Shown here one piece after another: positions 3,257-23,178 of a stretch of DNA of 23,178 nucleotides. Each line of letters starts with the position of its first letter. Position 1 is the stretch's first letter. The notes under the pieces were generated by a model, which saw only the letters and a list, made by a program, of their open reading frames with translations, did not search any database and was not told the origin of the DNA. Made by a program: the position numbers and the translations under genes. The stretch lies in IMG/VR virus record IMGVR_UViG_3300030004_000084, positions 1 to 23,178 of that record, one strand, 5' to 3'. The DNA is from a virus.

Positions 3257-3868
3257 ATGATTGGCGGATGTATTTATAAAATTACCAATAAAATCAACGG
3301 CAAAATGTATGTGGGTCAAACGACACAGCCTCTCCACGTTAGATTTAATTCTCATTGCGCAAAACATAGTCATTGCAAGTATCTATTGAGCGCTATAAAC
3401 ACATATGGGAGAAGTAATTTTACGATAGAAACACTTTTCTCTGCGAGATCTGAGAATAAGAGCGAATTAAAAGACATTTTAAATAAAGAAGAGAGTAAGT
3501 TGATAATTTTACTCAATACGGTAGCTCCAAACGGATACAACCTAACTTCTGGCGGGGATTGTGCAAAATTTAATAAAGAAAGCATTGAGTCTCGTGCCCA
3601 AAAACACAAAAAGCCAATTAGATGTAACGAAACGGGACAAATATGGGAATCGACAAAAGAATGCGCAGCTTATTTTGGAGTAAAATCTCAATCTATTTAT
3701 AGAATTTTAAGGGGTATTCGCGATACGTTTAGGGGATTAAGTTTTTCATACATCAATCCAAGTCGTTCGAAAAATAAAATTGTTAGAACGAGAAAAATAA
3801 GATCTTTGGACAGTTATGATCTTACGGGATTATATGAAAAAATAAATGAACAAAAAAAAGACCTATAA
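3257..3868 (+). CDS. GIY-YIG homing endonuclease with NUMOD1-like domain
   Basis: A free-standing homing endonuclease that would nick or cut DNA lacking the element and so spread itself. The N-terminus has the GIY-YIG hallmark: IYKITN at residues 6-11 and MYVGQTT near residue 18, followed by a loop rich in basic and His residues and a conserved Glu (KEESKLI). The C-terminal part carries a NUMOD1-type DNA-binding repeat, from KPIRCNETGQ to FRGLSFSYI (about residues 119-164). It sits between terL and a virion gene, in the same direction. The frame closes shortly after a run of eight A (3852-3859). A second NUMOD1 repeat follows in the -1 frame, so the protein may be truncated or made longer by frameshifting. 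There is no Shine-Dalgarno sequence; the AATCTTA motif lies 5 nt before the ATG. Confidence 0.85.
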   Translation: MIGGCIYKITNKINGKMYVGQTTQPLHVRFNSHCAKHSHCKYLLSAINTYGRSNFTIETLFSARSENKSELKDILNKEESKLIILLNTVAPNGYNLTSGGDCAKFNKESIESRAQKHKKPIRCNETGQIWESTKECAAYFGVKSQSIYRILRGIRDTFRGLSFSYINPSRSKNKIVRTRKIRSLDSYDLTGLYEKINEQKKDL

Positions 3869-13453: not shown

Positions 13454-14746
13454 TTATTTCTTAGATTTCTTGAAATCAACTAATTTACTTAAATCTTGCT
13501 CAAAATCAATACTTTTCTTAAGAGCAATCACTCTACCAAAAGCCTCGATTTCACCTTTAGAAAGGTGAGGCATTTTAGATTTCATGAACTTTTCAAATTT
13601 TTCTTTATGTTCCCAATTTTGGTAATCACTCTTGGCCTGTGCGTTCCAGTCCTTCTTTTTAGAACCTTTAAAATTATGATCTTCAGCGGCTGGTTTTGCC
13701 TTAGACATACTTTCAGTCTGATAAGCCGCACCATTTGTTAAAGTTGACGGGGCTGCATTATAGCTACCAGCCTCTACAGCTTTTCTAATGCTGGTGGCAC
13801 CAATTATATTTGGTGACGGATGATTTTGCATTGATGGTGCAGAAACTGTTCCGTTACTAAGACCGCCCATGAATTTTTGCGCATGCTCACCGGCTTCTTT
13901 AGCTGTACCGAAAATACCTTTTTTGTCGCCTATACCAGCGATTCTACCGTTGTGCTTTACATGAAACTCGCCAGATGGTTGCTTGTGGATACTTACAATA
14001 TTGTGTTCTGGGTGAGAAAAGTGTACAGCATCCCCAGTAACTTTGGGTCCTGACCATTTTGGTCCTTCACCTTTTTCAAGTTGGGCTTTGTGTAACTTAC
14101 AAAGTTTTTGTTCTTTTTTCTTGATAGTAGGCTCGGATTCTTTTTTGGCCAAGAAGGTTTCGTAAATCTTTTCGCCTTCACCAGTTTTAAATAGGGTAAC
14201 GGCTTCTTGATCACTTTTAAAGATCTCATCGAAATCATCTTTGATTTGTGGTGCTTGATTCTCAAGGATCTCAACTGCCGCCGCTGCATTACATGGAGCA
14301 GAGGTCAAGGTAACTTTACGAGCGATCCCTCTGGTAATTACGGACTTGCCAACTCTAGTATTTGGAATTTCGCTTCCTTCAATACTGAACCACATAATAT
14401 TGTAGTCGTTTTGGCCTTTTCTGTCCCTGTCGTATCTCAAAATGCCTGCAACGTGTTTTGCGCTATCACAATAATCATCAAGTAATTCTGCCATGATGTA
14501 AAGATAGGGGGCTTTTGTCTTCTTCCAAAAATGAAGCTCATGCTCATTTGCACAATCTTTTTGAGAGAAAATCTTCTTTGCTTTCAAGATCTTGCCGACT
14601 AATTGGCCAGGAAAATCGGACTTGTGCTCGTAATTTATGACACCCGTCTTTTCAAGAGAATCGATGCTTAATCCTTTAAGATCAAGTAGTTCGCCTGATT
14701 TATCGATGAATTGTACCGTTCCGATGCCGTGAAGGAAAGTTGACAT
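13454..14746 (-). CDS. Prohead protease with C-terminal extension
   Basis: Phage prohead proteases cleave scaffold and capsid propeptides during maturation. The N-terminal 165 residues fit the family: INYEHKSDFPGQLVGKI with the conserved His40, IMWFSIEGSEIP with the likely catalytic Ser121, and ARKVTLTSAPCNAAA, like the family's VTLTNxPAN. The remaining 265 residues are unusual. They include a Lys/Glu-rich linker, a small domain (HFSHPEHNIVSIHKQPSGEF, FGTAKEAGEHAQKFM), and at about 322-345 a peptide nearly identical to the N-terminus of the major capsid protein (EAGSYNAAPSTL, GAAYQ). The gene is on the strand opposite to the other head genes. The AATCTTA motif is 5 nt before the ATG, with no Shine-Dalgarno sequence. 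Confidence 0.8.
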   Translation of the reverse strand: MSTFLHGIGTVQFIDKSGELLDLKGLSIDSLEKTGVINYEHKSDFPGQLVGKILKAKKIFSQKDCANEHELHFWKKTKAPYLYIMAELLDDYCDSAKHVAGILRYDRDRKGQNDYNIMWFSIEGSEIPNTRVGKSVITRGIARKVTLTSAPCNAAAAVEILENQAPQIKDDFDEIFKSDQEAVTLFKTGEGEKIYETFLAKKESEPTIKKKEQKLCKLHKAQLEKGEGPKWSGPKVTGDAVHFSHPEHNIVSIHKQPSGEFHVKHNGRIAGIGDKKGIFGTAKEAGEHAQKFMGGLSNGTVSAPSMQNHPSPNIIGATSIRKAVEAGSYNAAPSTLTNGAAYQTESMSKAKPAAEDHNFKGSKKKDWNAQAKSDYQNWEHKEKFEKFMKSKMPHLSKGEIEAFGRVIALKKSIDFEQDLSKLVDFKKSKK

Positions 14747-14760: not shown

Positions 14761-15483
14761 TTAGTATCTATCATTCTTTTTTAAGTTTTCGATATGCCAT
14801 AGGGGTTGTAGGTTTGTGTAGTGATTAGCTTTTATAAATTGATCTTTATTGGTTAAATCGAAACTAGCAAGAGGAAAAATATGATCTAGGCTCCATTGAT
14901 TATTTTTATTGCCGTAATTTTCCCATGTCATACCCTTTTCCCATAGCCTTTCTATGTGTTTACAAAAATCTTCTATAGAGCACCCTAAATCTTTCACCGC
15001 TGACCCGTATTTTGGTTCTTTAATTCCTTTTTTGATATACTGATTGATTGTATTGGTTATCCTACTTCTTAAATAGCATTTTAATTTGAAATAAATATCG
15101 GAATCCCTTCTTTTTTTCATATATTTATTTTGTTTTTCGCTGTGACATTTTTTGCAAATTGGGCCCCTATAATTTAAACTAGTGTATTTGGAAATCTTTT
15201 TTATAAAACCATCCATTGGTTTTAAAATTTCACATTTTTTGCATACTCTCATATCATTTTTCTTATGCGTTTTGTTTATTTCTTTAATTTTTTGTAATTT
15301 TTCTTTATTTGTTTGATTGATACGCCAAATATTATCGAATTTTTTATTTTTTAAGTTCTTTTTTTCTACTTTAGTAAGTATTTTGCAGTCCTTACAAATA
15401 TCTTTTCTACCATCAATCGATTTGGCTCTTTTATCGAATTTTTCCATATTCTTGATTTTGTTGCATTTAATACATAATTTCAT
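14761..15483 (-). CDS. HNH-type homing endonuclease with two Cys4 fingers
   Basis: Free-standing endonuclease directly upstream of the protease gene, same strand. The N-terminus has one CxxC/CxxC zinc ribbon (CIKC, later CKDC) and a second near the middle (CKKC, later CKKC), joined by Lys-rich linkers. The C-terminal catalytic region reads WSLDHIFPLASF, then NLQPLWHIENLKKNDR. It matches the HNH-like pattern DHxxPxxxF...N..NLQPL...N..K found in phage endonucleases, with the DH pair and the late Asn. I chose the ATG at 15483 rather than the upstream TTG because the latter would place the AATCTTA motif inside the gene. There is no Shine-Dalgarno sequence; the motif core ends 5 nt upstream. Confidence 0.82.
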   Translation of the reverse strand: MKLCIKCNKIKNMEKFDKRAKSIDGRKDICKDCKILTKVEKKNLKNKKFDNIWRINQTNKEKLQKIKEINKTHKKNDMRVCKKCEILKPMDGFIKKISKYTSLNYRGPICKKCHSEKQNKYMKKRRDSDIYFKLKCYLRSRITNTINQYIKKGIKEPKYGSAVKDLGCSIEDFCKHIERLWEKGMTWENYGNKNNQWSLDHIFPLASFDLTNKDQFIKANHYTNLQPLWHIENLKKNDRY

Positions 15484-15487
15484 ACTA

Positions 15488-15496
15488 TTAAGATTA
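15488..15496 (-). promoter_or_regulatory. Candidate phage promoter motif TAATCTTAA
   Basis: Core AATCTTA on the minus strand (15495-15489), exactly 5 nt before the HNH endonuclease ATG, the same spacing as at the GIY-YIG and protease genes. This copy has T rather than C before the core. Confidence 0.5.
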
Positions 15497-15673
15497 TAGC
15501 ACAACTTATATTAAATTAAAAGTCCTATTGTACTAATTTTTATAAATATTTGATATTACATATAAATTTTTATTTTAAAATGAAGTGTGCCAATACTTAT
15601 CTATGAAAGCAACTAGTTGGCCATATTAATGGCTTTATATGTCTAGAAGACAAAAAATTTTAAGGAGATAAAC

Positions 15674-16171: not shown

Positions 16172-17083
16172 ATGTATACAGAAAAAGAACTTAGCAGCCT
16201 AATTGAAGATGTAACGAAAGAATTTACATCTCATTTAGCAAAAGCTGAAGAAAGCTTCAAAGCGTCTAAACCAGAGGAATCTGAGAAAAAAGACGAAAAG
16301 AAGCCAGAAGAACATAAAGAATCTGAAAAGCCAGAAGCTAAAGATCAAGCTCAAGCAGCTCCTTCTAAAGAAGAAGCTCCAAAAGCTGAATCTAAAGAGC
16401 AAATGCCACAAGAAGCTGGAAAAGAACAAGCCCAAGCTCCTCAAGCAGCTGCTCCTGAAGCTCAAGACGCTCATGGTTACGATGACGAAGACATGCAACA
16501 TATGCATTCTATGTATAGTTCAATGTCAAAACCAGAATTAAAGGCTCACCACGACTGTATCCGTAAATGTATGGACGGTATGGCAATGAGTGAACAAGGT
16601 ATGGCTAAAGCTGAAATGGAAGACGCTAAAGAAGGCGAACATCGCCCTAATGGTGGTCCAACTGACGGTGAAGCAGCTAGCAAAAAAGCAGCTCCTGCAA
16701 GTGATGCACAAGCTCTCGAAAAATCTGAAAAGACTTTAGAGATCGAAATGTCATCAATTAAAGAAGTTGAAATTTTGAAATCAGAACTTCAAGCTGCAAA
16801 AGCTGAGTCTGAAGCTACTAAAAAGAACTTAGAAGCAGTAGAAACTTTCCTGAAGAAATTCGTTGAGAAAGCGGCTCCTGCAGGAAAAGCAATTACTTCT
16901 TTGGACGTTATCGCTAAAACCGAAAGCGCAACAAAGACAGAAAAGCCTCTTTCTAAAAGTGAAATTGATTCCAAGCTTTTAGCTAAAGCGAAAGATCAAT
17001 CTCTTTCTAAGTCTGATAGAGAGGCCATTAACAGCTACTATTTTACAAAAAACATTGAAAAGGTTAGCCATCTACTTAAGTAA
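16172..17083 (+). CDS. Putative scaffolding/prohead core protein
   Basis: A 303-residue protein placed directly before the major capsid gene, the usual scaffold position. Residues 20-105 are low-complexity and highly charged (Lys, Glu, Ala, Pro, Gln). A short Met/His/Asp-rich segment follows (DDEDMQHMHSMYSSM, then HHDCIRKCMDGMAM). Residues about 190-240 form a predicted coiled coil (VEILKSELQAAKAESEATKKNLEAVETFL). The C-terminus is helical and basic (SKSDREAINSYYF). Length, high charge, coiled coil and neighbours fit a scaffold or prohead core protein that the protease would degrade, but sequence identity to a named scaffold is not visible. AAGGAG site before the ATG. Confidence 0.65.
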   Translation: MYTEKELSSLIEDVTKEFTSHLAKAEESFKASKPEESEKKDEKKPEEHKESEKPEAKDQAQAAPSKEEAPKAESKEQMPQEAGKEQAQAPQAAAPEAQDAHGYDDEDMQHMHSMYSSMSKPELKAHHDCIRKCMDGMAMSEQGMAKAEMEDAKEGEHRPNGGPTDGEAASKKAAPASDAQALEKSEKTLEIEMSSIKEVEILKSELQAAKAESEATKKNLEAVETFLKKFVEKAAPAGKAITSLDVIAKTESATKTEKPLSKSEIDSKLLAKAKDQSLSKSDREAINSYYFTKNIEKVSHLLK

Positions 17084-17119: not shown

Positions 17120-18523
17120 ATGTTAGAACAACTTCAAGGTCTGATGAAAGCATTGGAAGCAGGCAGTTACAACGCTGCTCCTTCTACGTTGGTACAAGGT
17201 GCCGCGTACCAAATCGAAGATTTAGCTCCAGTTATGGTTAACGTAACTGCTGCTGAAGAAACAATCAAGTTGCAAAAAATGTTGGACAGCCGTCCTACTA
17301 AGAGCAATTTGTATCAATATAACCGTAAATTGTCTGTAGGACGTTTCGGTGGATCTGCTGCATACGAAGGTATGCTCGGAGCTAAAAAGACTGGCCAAGC
17401 TGCTCGTTTGGTAGTTCCAATGGCTTACTACGTTGATACCCGTGAGCATTCACTGGTTGCTAACGCAGTTGAAACTTTCGATAAAGTTTCTGCTGAAGAA
17501 CGTCAAGCTCAAGACGCAGCTCTTAACTTGGCTCAAGATATCGAGTTCGACCTTTTCGCAGGTAACTCAGATTTCTCTAACCAAGGTGTGTTTGATGGTA
17601 ACCCAGCGTTGGTTCCAGCTCTTCCAAACATGCGCGGTGTTGATCTTCAAGTTCGTGCTTCTGACTATGAGCGCAACGGACAAGATCTCATGTTCGCTTC
17701 TTACGGATCTTCTGCAACTGTAGTTTTCTCTGCAGGTGGAGCAGCTCTTACTCAATCATTGATTGAAGATATTTCAGTTCGTTCTGCCCTCAACATGGGT
17801 CGCGCTGACAAGCTTATGCTTGATCCTTCTTCTCTCTCTGCTTATAACAAAATTAGCCAAGCTAAAGAACGTATCGTTCTTGCTGGTAGCCCACAAGAAG
17901 CTACTGGTTCTCACTTGCGCACTCAATGGACTTCTAGCGGTGCAATCACCATGGAAATGTCTCAGTACTTGCGTAAGCAAATTAGTCCTATAAACCAGTC
18001 TATCGTAGGCGCTCCAGCTGCTCCAACTGCTGCTGCTACTGACGGTGGTGCTGCTGGATCACTCCTCCAAGCTGCTGCTTATAGCTACGTTGTAGCTGCA
18101 GTTAACGCTTTCGGCGAAGGCCCAACTTCTGCTGTAACAACTGTTACTCCGGCTGCTGCTGGAAATAAAGTATCGGTTGCTATCGGTGCAGTTGCCGGTG
18201 CTCTTTACTACCGCGTTTATCGTACCGCTGCTGGTGTAGCTGCTAACGTTGCTCCAGGCCCTCTTTTCATCGGTAACATCCTTGCTCTTCCAAGCGGTGC
18301 AGCTTTCACCGATCTTGGTAACTTGGCTCCAGGTGCTTTAACAGGTTTCTTGATCCAAAAAGACACAATGCACCTCGGGGAACTCTCTGGATTCAAAAAA
18401 ATCCAATTAGGTATCAGCCAATTGTCAATCAACAACGCTTTCTATCGTTGGACTACTCTTGCAGTAGAAGCTCCAAGAAAAAATGCCATTGTAGAAAATC
18501 TTCAAGGACAGCTTTTCACCTAA
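17120..18523 (+). CDS. Major capsid protein with inserted Ig/FN3-like domain
   Basis: 467 residues. Position after protease and scaffold-like genes, the strong AAGGAG site, the Ala-rich well-expressed codon pattern and the strong terminator behind it all fit the major capsid protein. The N-terminal 35 residues hold EAGSYNAAPSTL and GAAYQ, a motif also found in the protease. The body has RKLSVGRFGGSAAYEGM and an HK97-like spine helix region (EERQAQDAALNLAQDIEFDLFAG). Residues about 297-403 look like an inserted Ig/FN3-type domain: AAYSYVVAAVNAFGEGPTSA, then ALYYRVYRTAAG and GAAFTDLGN. The remainder returns to capsid-like sequence (FKKIQLGISQLSINNAFYRW). Such insertions are usually surface-exposed. 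Assignment is strong by context. Confidence 0.85.
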   Translation: MLEQLQGLMKALEAGSYNAAPSTLVQGAAYQIEDLAPVMVNVTAAEETIKLQKMLDSRPTKSNLYQYNRKLSVGRFGGSAAYEGMLGAKKTGQAARLVVPMAYYVDTREHSLVANAVETFDKVSAEERQAQDAALNLAQDIEFDLFAGNSDFSNQGVFDGNPALVPALPNMRGVDLQVRASDYERNGQDLMFASYGSSATVVFSAGGAALTQSLIEDISVRSALNMGRADKLMLDPSSLSAYNKISQAKERIVLAGSPQEATGSHLRTQWTSSGAITMEMSQYLRKQISPINQSIVGAPAAPTAAATDGGAAGSLLQAAAYSYVVAAVNAFGEGPTSAVTTVTPAAAGNKVSVAIGAVAGALYYRVYRTAAGVAANVAPGPLFIGNILALPSGAAFTDLGNLAPGALTGFLIQKDTMHLGELSGFKKIQLGISQLSINNAFYRWTTLAVEAPRKNAIVENLQGQLFT

Positions 18524-18548: not shown

Positions 18549-18586
18549 ACCCCTGGTAAGTACTACTTACTGGGGGTTTATTTTTT
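18549..18586 (+). terminator. Intrinsic terminator after the major capsid gene
   Basis: A long stem, ACCCCTGGTAAGT with its complement ACTTACTGGGGGT, around a 3-nt loop, followed by a T-rich tract. It contains one T-G wobble near the middle and one G-T. It is 26 nt after the capsid stop and also closes the convergent HNH gene, whose stop lies in the T tract. Confidence 0.85.
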
Positions 18587-19168
18587 AACGTAATGAAAGA
18601 ATATGCGCTCAATTAAGTTTTTAAATTCTTCACATGTCATATTGTTTTTAGCCTGATTGCAGCGTCCGCAACAAGTAACGGAATTGGTAGGGGTGTATCC
18701 TAAGCTACTATCGACTCTATCTACACCATTATACAAATAGTTCCCGTTCGAACCCTTTTGTCCTACTGAAAACAAAGGCTCAACATTACAATAGTTACAA
18801 CTCTTATTGGTTAATTCAATGAATTCTTCAAATTTTAAGGAAAATTCAATGTCTCTGTATTTAGCTCTACCTTTATATAGATTAAACAGATATCTTTTAG
18901 ACGCCTCGCCCTTTGGTTTAATATTTCTTCCAGAAATAAGAGATTCACGAGCCCAACAACCGCACGATACGGACGTTCTATTTCTAATTTCGGATCCTGG
19001 CATTATTCTTACGTTGCCGCAATCACATATACATCTGTATGCGTAATTAGAGCCTTTTTTACCGGCTAATTCTAATACAAGGAGTCTTCCAAACCTCTTG
19101 CCTTCCATGGGAATTCTATATTGAGGCATAATTAAGGGAATTCCACTGTATCTATTAAGACATACCAT
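18578..19168 (-). CDS. HNH homing endonuclease (start uncertain)
   Basis: Free-standing endonuclease behind the major capsid gene, convergent with it. The N-terminal module is a small DNA-binding ribbon (GKRFGRLLVLELAG, YRCICDCGN, SVSCGCW). The catalytic part has CNYC, then YNGVDRVDSSLGYTPTN and VTCCGRCNQAKNNMTCEEF. This is the well-known phage HNH subgroup with NG(V/I)DRVD and CCxxCNxAK. The longest frame starts at 19168 and overlaps the upstream gene by 14 nt; ATGs at 19129 and 19108 would start closer to the conserved GKRFGRL. No clear ribosome binding site decides between them. It probably belongs to the transcription unit from the dNMP kinase promoter. Confidence 0.85.
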   Translation of the reverse strand: MVCLNRYSGIPLIMPQYRIPMEGKRFGRLLVLELAGKKGSNYAYRCICDCGNVRIMPGSEIRNRTSVSCGCWARESLISGRNIKPKGEASKRYLFNLYKGRAKYRDIEFSLKFEEFIELTNKSCNYCNVEPLFSVGQKGSNGNYLYNGVDRVDSSLGYTPTNSVTCCGRCNQAKNNMTCEEFKNLIERIFFHYVKK

Positions 19169-20165: not shown

Positions 20166-20639
20166 ATGAGATTGACCTCCGTACCAATTATAAATTTCAG
20201 TAATATCAATGACTTCCAAGAGACCAGTCAGTGGACAATAAGGTCATCAGACCCTAATACCCTTTATTTTCAACTATTTGACTTGGATAACACCATTAGT
20301 ACACAGGCACCATTTTCAGCCCTTAATGGCGGCTTCTTCAATGCTGCTATTCAAACTTACCCTCAAAGATTTATCGCCGGAGTTGGAATCTCTAACCAAC
20401 CTGTAAGCCTAAAAGTGACCTTTCCAAGCTTAAACATTGGAAATACGCTTGCTTATACGGCTACTCCTGATCCCAACGATGCTTCTGTTTGGTCTTTCAA
20501 TCTACCGGGATACGCCAATGTGGGCTCTGGGCCATCTAGCGGAAACGTTATTTTTTCTTTAACTCAAGGCATTAATACCTACACATGGACTGTTCAGAAC
20601 ATGTTGGCGGTTGAAATGACCAATCAGGGGTGTTGTTAA
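20166..20639 (+). CDS. Putative small virion protein
   Basis: 157 residues with no recognised family. It looks beta-rich, with repeated hydrophobic/polar alternation (NTLYFQLFDLDN, VSLKVTFPSLNIGNT, SVWSFNLPGYANVGSG, GNVIFSLTQGINTYTWTVQN) and ends in two Cys. No membrane segment. The ATG is preceded by a GAGG site. Its stop overlaps the next ATG by one base (TAATG), so it is co-translated with the connector-like protein. A neck, head-tail joining or decoration role is suggested by the neighbours only. Confidence 0.6.
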   Translation: MRLTSVPIINFSNINDFQETSQWTIRSSDPNTLYFQLFDLDNTISTQAPFSALNGGFFNAAIQTYPQRFIAGVGISNQPVSLKVTFPSLNIGNTLAYTATPDPNDASVWSFNLPGYANVGSGPSSGNVIFSLTQGINTYTWTVQNMLAVEMTNQGCC

Positions 20640-21574
20640 TGAGTACTCCTCCTTTTAAGCCAGGTCCGCCGTATGATGAGCAGCAGGCCCCGTATGAGCC
20701 AGTTCCTAGGGTTACTTCTGGTCCCTTAGACGGTACTCCTCAGCCTGCTAATTTTGAAAAAGATAAGCAGTTCTATTCTGCTGCTTATCCAGTCCACATG
20801 ACCCATTCTTCTGGGTTATTGAGTCGATGTGAGCCCATGCTCACTCCTCAACTTTTGGTGTCTCGTTACCTTAAGGGGATTCCTTTGGCATTTCCAAATG
20901 GTGACTCTTATAGCGCTGAAGACATCAAAGACCAAATTGTACTCGCCATGAACGAAATTGAGCTTATGTGCAAGATCACATTAAGCAGAGAGCAGTTTAC
21001 CGATAAAGTTCCATTCGATATCGCTCTTTACAAAAGTTTCATTTTCTTAAAGACAGAACAAAATCCAGTACTCGCCGTACAAAGCGTTCAAATTGTCAGC
21101 AGTGATGGTTATGCAGTTTTCAAGATCCCACCCGAATGGCTTGAGCCAAGTAACTTCTCGAAGGGTATTGTTAACGTAGTACCAATCCTTGGTGCCTACT
21201 CTGTTGCTTCAGGCGGCGGAGTTGGAGCTTACGGTGGTATTCCATATCTTAACGTATTTAGTTCACTTACTTTCGTTCCTGGCTTTTGGCAAATCGTTTA
21301 TCAAACCGGTGTATCTAAAGTTGAAGGTCAATTCCCTGTTGTGATCAATGATCTCATCGGAACCATCGCTTCGATCAACATGCTTTCCGCTATCACTAAT
21401 ATGTTTTTACAAACAAGTCAGTCATTAAGCCGTGACGGTATCAGTCAGTCATCTTCTGGACCTGGGCCTCGTATGTACCTTCCTTACATCGAGATGTTAG
21501 AGAAGAAACGCGATACTCTGATTGCCAAAGTCAAAGCAACATTCGCAACAAAATTCTTAATTTCGAATATTTAA
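20639..21574 (+). CDS. Putative head-tail connector/neck protein
   Basis: 311 residues. The N-terminal 40 are Pro-rich and disordered. The middle carries LLVSRYLKGIPLAF and SAEDIKDQIVLAMNEIELMCKITL, reminiscent of the helix pair of head-tail connector proteins. FKIPPEWLEPSNFSKGIVNVVP and the following GFWQIVYQTG and FPVVINDLIGTIASINMLS suggest a beta barrel-plus-helix fold. The C-terminus has a long helix (YIEMLEKKRDTLIAKVKATF). I chose ATG 20639 over the in-frame GTG/TTG codons before it: it makes a TAATG overlap and follows AGGGG. Order after the capsid and before a lytic virion protein fits the neck, but the family assignment is by pattern, not a firm match. Confidence 0.6.
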   Translation: MSTPPFKPGPPYDEQQAPYEPVPRVTSGPLDGTPQPANFEKDKQFYSAAYPVHMTHSSGLLSRCEPMLTPQLLVSRYLKGIPLAFPNGDSYSAEDIKDQIVLAMNEIELMCKITLSREQFTDKVPFDIALYKSFIFLKTEQNPVLAVQSVQIVSSDGYAVFKIPPEWLEPSNFSKGIVNVVPILGAYSVASGGGVGAYGGIPYLNVFSSLTFVPGFWQIVYQTGVSKVEGQFPVVINDLIGTIASINMLSAITNMFLQTSQSLSRDGISQSSSGPGPRMYLPYIEMLEKKRDTLIAKVKATFATKFLISNI

Positions 21575-21579
21575 TTTTT

Positions 21580-22728
21580 ATGGAATACGAACTTCATTTA
21601 ATTGGCAAAGCCGAAGACCCCGCTAAGTATGCAAAAGATGCTAGCGAAGGTCTTATTTTGGGCTATCCAGTAAAAATTAAGGGTCAAGCACATCGTCCAG
21701 ACAACAATGTACCGTACCATTCTACTATTAAATACTTCGACAAAGAGAAGGATCATCCACATCAGATACATCATATCGCTCGTCACCTTCCTCTTAACCC
21801 TCCTGATGCTAAAAATACTCAAATAAAATTCGATCAATTTAAAGATCGTTTTGGCAATGATGTGAATGTAGTGACCCTACATGGCAATTCCGCCGATAAA
21901 CTAAAAGAACATAACGGTAAATTTGCAGGGCATGGATTCCCATCTAAATTTGAATGGACACCGCATGTATCCTTGGATCGTAAGACTTGGGAAGACATGA
22001 AAAATTCAGGTGCTAAAACTGCCCATGAAGCAGGCATTGAATTTGGTAGCGCTGAATTAAAAAAAGGACACAAGACCCTTAAAACTTACCATCATCACCC
22101 CGATACTACTGAGCCAGTATCTCCAGATGAAAGTGATTACACAGCAAAAATCGCAGTCAATAAGTCGGAATTACCTCTAGAAAAGGGCGCTCTTAAAAAT
22201 GCAGCACTTGGAATGGGTATGGCTGCCGCCCTTGCCGGTGCCACAAATCATGCCGCTACTCCAAAAAATACCCCAGATATGCAAGCTCGCCAAAGCTACG
22301 ACCACGGTAAAATGTTACGCGCTATTGCATCTGTAGAATCCTCTGGCGGCAAAAATACAAATCATGCGGCTGGCGGCGGCGCAATTCATGGTTCAGAGCA
22401 TGCTTATGGTCGTTATGGATTGATGCCACAGACTATCAGGGAAGTAGTTGGAGCACACAAAGATCTTAAGTCTAAGCACGCAAAGCTTTTAGCATTAAAA
22501 GGTCAGAATTTACACAGATACATGCAAGACCATAAGGGACTTGAGGATACAGTGGCGGATAGACACCTATCTCATTTAGAGCATGTTGTTGGACAGGATC
22601 CTTCCCATTTAGGCTACGGTTGGCTAAATGGAGCGCAAGGTACTTTGAATGCCAAAAAACAGGGCAAAGATATAAACAGTCATTGGCATGCACGTAAAGT
22701 GTCGGAGGCATATGGAAAAGAAAAATAA
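21580..22728 (+). CDS. 2H phosphoesterase-lytic transglycosylase fusion
   Basis: 382 residues with two distinct halves. Residues 1-165 carry the 2H phosphoesterase pair: YHSTIKYF (His47, Thr49) and WTPHVSL (His129, Ser131), 82 residues apart, each preceded by hydrophobic residues as in 2'-5' RNA ligases, CPDases and Acb1. A linker with a hydrophobic patch (AALGMGMAAALAG, 208-220) follows. Residues 244-382 resemble a lytic transglycosylase: IASVESSGG with likely catalytic Glu253, then YGRYGLMPQTI (276-286). The second half would cut peptidoglycan glycan strands, typically during DNA entry. The first would cleave 2',3'-cyclic or related phosphodiesters; the substrate is unknown. It is in line with the virion genes, 5 nt after the connector-like gene. 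Confidence 0.75.
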   Translation: MEYELHLIGKAEDPAKYAKDASEGLILGYPVKIKGQAHRPDNNVPYHSTIKYFDKEKDHPHQIHHIARHLPLNPPDAKNTQIKFDQFKDRFGNDVNVVTLHGNSADKLKEHNGKFAGHGFPSKFEWTPHVSLDRKTWEDMKNSGAKTAHEAGIEFGSAELKKGHKTLKTYHHHPDTTEPVSPDESDYTAKIAVNKSELPLEKGALKNAALGMGMAAALAGATNHAATPKNTPDMQARQSYDHGKMLRAIASVESSGGKNTNHAAGGGAIHGSEHAYGRYGLMPQTIREVVGAHKDLKSKHAKLLALKGQNLHRYMQDHKGLEDTVADRHLSHLEHVVGQDPSHLGYGWLNGAQGTLNAKKQGKDINSHWHARKVSEAYGKEK

Positions 22729-23178
22729 TTGTCATCCAGAACTTCCTCATATGGCCAAGGGCATGTGCAGACAGTGTTATCTTAAGGACTATAGAGACAA
22801 TCCTAAAAATAAAGCTAAAGCCAAAGAAGTTCATCGCAAATGGGAAGCAAATAATAGAGACTACAGAAACAAAAAATCTAGAGAATGGGAAATCGCTAAT
22901 AAAGAAACGATTCGTGAAACCAAAAAGAAGTATGTTAGCAAGAATTTACACAAATACCGATTCTATTGTGCTAAGAGACATGCAGCAAAGATCCAAAGAA
23001 CCCCTACGTGGTCTGATATAAAAGCAATAAGAGACTTTTACTTAAATTGCCCAGAGGGAAAAGAAGTTGATCATATCGTGCCGTTACAAGGAAAGAATGT
23101 ATCGGGCTTACATATCATGAGTAATTTACAATACTTGACAAAATCAGAAAATTGTCAAAAACATAATAAGTTCGAGGA
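22712..23178 (+). CDS. HNH endonuclease (3' end outside window)
   Basis: Open to the window's last base; 155 residues are visible. It overlaps the end of the 2H-transglycosylase gene by 17 nt in another frame. GGAGG stands 3 nt before the ATG, a rather short spacing. The N-terminus has a small CH/CxxC ribbon (CHPELPHM, CRQC). A long Lys/Arg-rich helical middle follows. The catalytic part reads GKEVDHIVPLQG, then GLHIMSNLQYLT and ENCQKHNKF, the typical HNH order DHIxPL...NLQxL...N..K. Its position after another conserved virion gene, and its basic composition, match the other homing endonucleases here. Confidence 0.82.
   Translation, partial: MEKKNNCHPELPHMAKGMCRQCYLKDYRDNPKNKAKAKEVHRKWEANNRDYRNKKSREWEIANKETIRETKKKYVSKNLHKYRFYCAKRHAAKIQRTPTWSDIKAIRDFYLNCPEGKEVDHIVPLQGKNVSGLHIMSNLQYLTKSENCQKHNKFE

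Follow-up and report, generated by a model that had tools for sequence, protein, structure and literature searches.

The gene at the 3' end of the late block in a viral record from IMG/VR (IMGVR_UViG_3300030004_000084; the whole stretch of 23,178 bases is called the window here) is best explained, judging from sequence comparison, as one of the smaller representatives of a family of polyvalent polyproteins that is modular and associated with the virion. Its product combines a 2H phosphoesterase domain with an SLT-type lytic transglycosylase domain. Copies of a short motif, [LIVMA]xK[SA]E, lie ahead of the 2H domain (IGKAE, 8–12) and between the 2H and SLT domains (VNKSE, 193–197). In the best reading, the motif is a prohead-protease site that would allow an N-terminal targeting peptide to be trimmed and the 2H part to be split from the SLT part. 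The whole pathway, which comprises prohead targeting, cutting at the motif, injection, action of the SLT part on the wall and action of the 2H part on a phosphodiester, is given a probability of about 0.6.

The late block contains a GroEL-like chaperonin gene, an ORF at 1373, and genes for portal, MuF-like, prohead protease, scaffold-like and major capsid proteins, together with the conserved gene at 20630 (Table 1). For the large ORF at 1373, only position and size suggest a terminase. The chaperonin gene (1–1368; divergent GroEL type, phrog_5725, E 5e-52) adjoins the packaging genes and is truncated by the start of the record. Homing-endonuclease-type ORFs, recognized by eye as GIY-YIG/HNH-like, are dispersed among the virion genes (3257–3868; 14761–15504 and 18578–19168, both on the minus strand; 22688–23176), and the last of them overlaps the 3' end of the 2H-SLT gene. 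An overlapping reverse-strand gene at the 2H-SLT ORF was also considered and was rejected because the frame read is full of stops.

Table 1. Features of the window and module composition of slot proteins in related records
Feature	Position	Strand	Remarks
2H-SLT slot polyprotein, CDS	21580..22728	+	exact span; ATG start, 382 aa
Site 1, I-G-K-A-E, residues 8-12	21601..21615	+	predicted cut/targeting site, end of N-terminal peptide
2H phosphoesterase domain, residues 13-176	21616..22107	+	Pfam, AlphaFold2, Foldseek, VIA-align
First 2H motif HSTI, His47	21718..21729	+	
Second 2H motif HVSL, His129	21964..21975	+	
Site 2, V-N-K-S-E, residues 193-197	22156..22170	+	predicted cut site, 2H/SLT junction
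Hydrophobic signal-peptide-like segment, residues 208-222	22201..22245	+	ahead of SLT
SLT-type lytic transglycosylase domain, residues 236-382	22285..22725	+	catalytic-type Glu253 at 22336-22338
Conserved virion gene	20630..21574	+	slot marker, immediately upstream of the 2H-SLT gene
Scaffold-like protein	16172..17083	+	[LIVMA]xK[SAT]E nine times vs 0.54 expected
Major capsid protein (phrog_752)	17120..18523	+	
Predicted prohead (head maturation) protease	13454..14746	-	candidate cutter; phrog_1028, E 1.9e-4
Slot proteins, 2H+SLT			window, L001, L009, L037
Slot proteins, 2H+extra+SLT			L008, L031, L032, L092, L098
Slot protein, SAM-lyase-like+2H+SLT			L013
Slot proteins, 2H+other modules			L004, L006, L028, L036
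Slot protein, 2H alone			L107
Slot protein, GNAT+...+SLT			L002
Slot protein, SAM-lyase-like+GNAT+...+SLT			L012, 1667 aa
Slot protein of Mx1, annotated 'NUDIX hydrolase'			1479 aa; GNAT + ART-PolyVal (E 2.8e-16) + NUDIX + SLT-like part (by eye)

The 2H and SLT domains

The predicted 2H fold can be considered secure, because the model, its structural matches to 2H enzymes and the invariant residues all point to it. The domain was modelled with AlphaFold2 from 18 aligned domains from IMG/VR, which include two pairs of identical or almost identical sequences (pLDDT 92.7, pTM 0.87). In a Foldseek search of the PDB, ranks 1–22 were all 2H enzymes (best E 7.5e-4), including Usb1, AKAP18, YjcG, a Burkholderia phage PDE, Acb1, rotavirus VP3, LigT and CPDase. 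The top rows of a VIA-align comparison were 2H enzymes too. The comparison with 2H folds that the preliminary description called for thus gave the expected matches, and both of the 2H motifs it named were found where it had placed them. Their histidines are invariant in 18/18 rows and, in the rows displayed, sit in the pattern H-x-[ST]-h; across all rows, Y17, V31, G35, K51, F155 and G163 (full-length numbering) are invariant as well. Membership of the 2H superfamily is indicated by the fold together with the two H-x-[S/T]-h motifs kept in homologues. The Pfam profile 2_5_RNA_ligase2 matches residues 39–140 below its gathering cut-off (E 0.002; 3e-4 with the isolated domain). It is very improbable that the domain is a catalytically dead structural module retained for folding or packaging, as both histidines persist through rows of ~40–73% identity and one divergent row of ~20%. 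Nothing useful was returned when the whole protein was searched by tblastn against 50,697 phage records or in PDB sequence searches, and no sequence related to the 2H domain came up in a scan of genome contigs.

The substrate is less clearly indicated by the fold. The preliminary description allowed for action on RNA or a blunting of cyclic-nucleotide defence and cited Acb1, the anti-CBASS phosphodiesterase, which likewise has a 2H fold and two HxT/S motifs. From the model, an Acb1-like role is possible, but it is not favoured, because the score for Acb1 (VIA-align Z 7.5) is slightly below those for Arabidopsis CPDase (9.5) and for VP3, LigT and Usb1 (~9); poxvirus cGAMP PDE scores 7.1. The window domain is structurally no closer to Acb1 than to these enzymes. 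The Pfam Acb1 profile matches 1/12 relatives (E 0.081) and does not match the window domain. With this weak match and the lower fold score, a specific Acb1 assignment was considered and left aside. Acb1 is not known to form part of a polyprotein of this type. A serious competitor, which concerns the last step of the pathway only and falls somewhat short of an even chance, is an RNA-end enzyme (Usb1-, LigT- or CPDase-like) that acts in RNA repair or damage and not against signalling. The folds of Usb1, LigT and CPDase are at least as near as that of Acb1, and an RNase role is among the options given by Iyer et al. (PMC5512222). On the other side, no RNA ligase was identified in the window genes scanned, and co-delivery with DNA suits immediate anti-defence action; neither point is decisive.

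The transglycosylase-like half recognized in the preliminary description is confirmed by SLT motifs (E253-S, G280-L-M-P, W348-L-N-G) and by Glu253, which is invariant across the ten SLT sequences aligned. The Pfam SLT profile matches 6/10 relatives (best E 3.8e-6) and the window protein itself at E 0.04–0.12; the Pfam scores of the window protein fall under the curated cut-offs. The assignment as an SLT lytic transglycosylase draws on the profile match in relatives, the ES, GLM and WLNG-type motifs and the catalytic-type Glu. The sole full-length AlphaFold model, made from 2 sequences only, is poor (pLDDT 36). Of all 15-residue stretches in the protein, the most hydrophobic lies ~45 residues N-terminal of Glu253. 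The hydrophobic maximum has this position in 13/15 SLT-bearing proteins examined, the exceptions being L012, in which this segment ranks second, and Mx1. It usually has Lys before it and small residues after it, and it resembles a signal peptide or a membrane anchor, though internal to the chain. SLT motifs with a catalytic-type Glu are also found in virion lytic transglycosylases such as those of the T7 gp16 type, a large internal core protein. Unlike these, the SLT domain here is a module of a mosaic slot polyprotein, placed behind the signal-like hydrophobic segment.

Mosaic relatives in the same slot

The clade consists of myovirus contigs of up to 170 kb and one isolate, Myxococcus phage Mx1, which has a contractile long tail (PMC10720576). 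Mx1 is the only close isolate relative found, and its major capsid protein is 47% identical over the full length. A homologue of the 20630 gene is present in 11/13 relative records. In the annotated loci it is followed by one or more slot protein genes and then by a conserved "after" gene, with the exception of L108. The modules in the slot are shuffled and include 2H, SLT, SAM lyase, GNAT, ADP-ribosyltransferase, NUDIX and others of unknown kind. For this reason, and with the ART-PolyVal domain of Mx1 among these mosaic modules, the slot family is placed among the polyvalent proteins. The window protein has the same character: disparate activities, 2H and SLT, are carried on one polypeptide encoded beside capsid and other virion genes.

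The preliminary description knew of no described fusion of this kind. At the level of the class, the idea is already published, because Iyer et al. 2017 report that polyvalent proteins, MuF and portal fusions among them, can contain 2H domains, which are proposed to act as RNases or to degrade counter-invader nucleotides (PMC5512222). The proteins described there resemble the present ones in being multi-domain, encoded in virion blocks and endowed with unrelated activities (2H, GNAT, ART, lysozyme-type). There are also two differences. Processing is credited there to built-in zincin-like metallopeptidases, which the window protein does not have, and the slot relatives carry SAM-lyase-like modules.

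The SAM lyase-like module (PF23780, best E 1.5e-6) is found at the C-terminus of L065:8932-10788, in residues 83–232 of L012 and in the N-terminal part of L013, and also at L001:2-304 and at 38419-38814 of Mx1 (OR576727). In G001 it is joined to the prohead protease; elsewhere it is a module or a separate gene. It is a candidate injected anti-restriction enzyme. Another recurrent module of the slot proteins, phrog_3170, occurs in L006 (5965-7191), L105 (3196-3921), L002 (1-533) and L012; it has a conserved His and the pattern NPEHGKxIADAY...FRIVHDINGHH...ETxGQNxWVNFGPHGE. A stand-alone 2H homologue lies outside the structural block at L108:3866-4480, near ClpX- and deaminase-like ORFs recognized by eye.

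A motif common to scaffold and slot proteins

The motif [LIVMA]xK[SA]E occurs 42 times in 21 slot proteins (3.6 expected) and 38 times in six scaffold proteins of the same phages (2.5 expected). Expected counts were obtained by shuffling residues only inside 30-aa blocks, and 0/100 shuffles reached either observed count; the counts come from related sequences and are not independent events. Re-ordered motifs occurred 0–3 times (in slot proteins, 1–3 times for each of five re-orderings, with 3.4–3.6 expected). On the strength of these local shuffles and permutations, an origin of the motif in K/E/S-rich linkers was rejected. The enrichment also extends to divergent members, with scaffolds 31–35% identical to that of the window, and to Mx1, whose slot protein carries LKKSE, MKKAE, ALKSE and LEKSE and whose scaffold carries LAKSE. 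In two contigs that were read almost completely, the genes for scaffold, slot proteins and protease reach 6.8–6.9 motifs per 1000 aa, against 0.3–0.7 for the other genes of the structural block and 0.2–0.3 elsewhere.

The sites in slot proteins lie outside the 2H and SLT domains or at their extreme edge. At site 1, K10 and E12 are invariant in seven relatives aligned, and the 2H/SLT linkers of L001 and L037 show the variant LAASE in place of the canonical motif. The motif was rejected as a part of the 2H domain: it also flanks unrelated modules and is absent from L108, the only 2H homologue that turned up beyond the virion block. It is absent from the capsid proteins as well, where the N-terminus LMKALEAGSYN is found instead, and the exact motif was not found in the window's own prohead protease. 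The latter protein, a weak profile match, is a homologue of the Mx1 protein annotated as putative prohead protease. Like the proteases of relatives and Mx1, it holds a copy of the N-terminus of the major capsid protein, KA[VL]EAGSYNAAPSTL..GAAYQ, which is possibly a cut or docking sequence of the capsid protein.

Prohead proteases cleave after Glu at short motifs (L/I-x-E in T4, S/A-x-E in phiKZ, A-x-E in SPN3US); they strip targeting propeptides, and scaffolds are also their substrates (PMC9026906, PMC10052503). The internal proteins of T4 have N-terminal targeting peptides of ~10 residues that terminate in a protease site (PMC9026906), and the 12-residue N-terminus of the window protein, ending in KAE, fits this plan. 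What was found here is a short motif that is common to the scaffold and enriched above chance. Because the window protein has no zincin and shares its motif with the scaffold, the prohead protease is indicated as the processor. A built-in zincin was considered in this role and rejected; HExxH-like modules are present in L004 and L012 and none is present in the window protein. The cut may instead fall one residue earlier, ahead of the Glu in LxK[SA]E, which would also fit the start of the major capsid protein.

Two other accounts of the motif and the fusion have to be weighed. The preliminary description pictured a virion-borne protein that could bring a phosphodiesterase into the cell at entry. 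In the first account, this protein stays intact and bifunctional, its transglycosylase opening the wall and the 2H domain, still tethered, passing in with it. About ten distinct relatives do retain 2H and SLT in one ORF, the gene lies in the late virion block, and the relatives are built like injected polyvalent proteins, so this part of the description stands. The intact state is not supported as proposed and appears unlikely: the motif occurs at domain boundaries and in scaffolds far above chance, and the 2H and SLT halves are found apart in relatives. Because cut-site-like motifs flank the 2H domain, the halves are probably parted in the virion, and the "fusion" may be transient, as a predicted prohead-protease site separates them. 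Slightly less likely again is a role of the motif in docking or capsid targeting, in which it would bind to the head core or the protease and stay uncut. Co-assembly would explain its presence in scaffold and cargo, but its Glu and its short pattern of hydrophobic and small residues resemble known prohead-protease sites. Moreover, its copies are placed between modules, where a cut would be meaningful, and docking would hardly call for so many of them.

In a literature search, no paper was found describing a motif common to scaffold and effector modules, which is not proof of novelty. The class of virion polyproteins with 2H enzymes is already known; the cut-site-like motif linking the scaffold to effector modules seems to be the new part.

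Proposed route into the cell and its implications

By analogy with the capsid-targeting peptides of T4, the short N-terminal peptide ending in IGKAE would bring the protein into the prohead. There, as the motif statistics suggest, the prohead protease would cut at [LIVMA]xK[SA]E as in the scaffold, so that the N-peptide is removed and the 2H and SLT parts are separated. Both parts would leave with the DNA on ejection. The SLT part, with its hydrophobic signal-like N-terminus newly exposed, would work on peptidoglycan at entry. The 2H part would reach the cytosol and, given its predicted fold, may hydrolyse a phosphodiester of the 2',3'-cyclic, 2'-5' or cyclic-oligonucleotide type; the probable purpose is to weaken defence signals or to process RNA ends. 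A close precedent is T4, in which IPI–III and Alt likewise begin with a short peptide that terminates in a Glu motif, and gp21 also cleaves the scaffold and the internal proteins are ejected (PMC9026906). Here, cleavage and ejection are predicted from sequence; the site is [LIVMA]xK[SA]E in place of L/I-x-E, and several enzyme modules per chain have predicted sites between them.

A protein with an mCpol/GGDEF-like cyclase domain is encoded in the late block of the clade (L001:4359-5675; L064:13397-15775, minus strand), with homologues in G004, G006, L105, L054, L031 and L107. The mCpol profile (PF18182) matches two relatives at E 4e-9 and 8e-11, and the six sequences aligned retain D-x-D-type and GDE active-site residues. 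Among the relatives that encode this protein is G006, with a capsid protein 99% identical to that of the window; the window stops short of that gene. The L001 protein has repeated DHxHTDDCQYC units. In Panoptes, mCpol makes 2',3'-c-di-AMP, and this guard can be set off by phage proteins directed against CBASS (PMC12657218, PMC12657230). In view of this, the pairing of a cyclase and a 2H enzyme in one phage is of interest, and a Panoptes-related role can be put forward as speculation.

A wider reading is tentative and, with all its parts taken together, rather unlikely to hold. The prohead protease would dice a mosaic chain in the head and free an injected set of anti-defence enzymes (2H, SAM lyase, GNAT, ART and others). 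The same motif would clear the scaffold, and the transglycosylase would acquire a functional export signal only once the chain has been cut. The particle could hold both a maker of cyclic nucleotides and a phosphodiesterase, so that, for example, CBASS signals would be degraded while a Panoptes-type guard is kept quiet. If the main pathway set out above is right, and independently of this wider reading, there is a simple packing rule: many unrelated enzymes are carried as one mosaic chain with the cut sites of the scaffold, and any new module with the motif on both sides gets packaged and freed. The motif could then be used to find injected effectors in uncultivated phages, and candidate anti-defence enzymes such as the 2H enzyme and SAM lyase would be active ahead of phage gene expression. 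The processing of polyvalent proteins would also become directly testable in Mx1, a cultivable Myxococcus phage.
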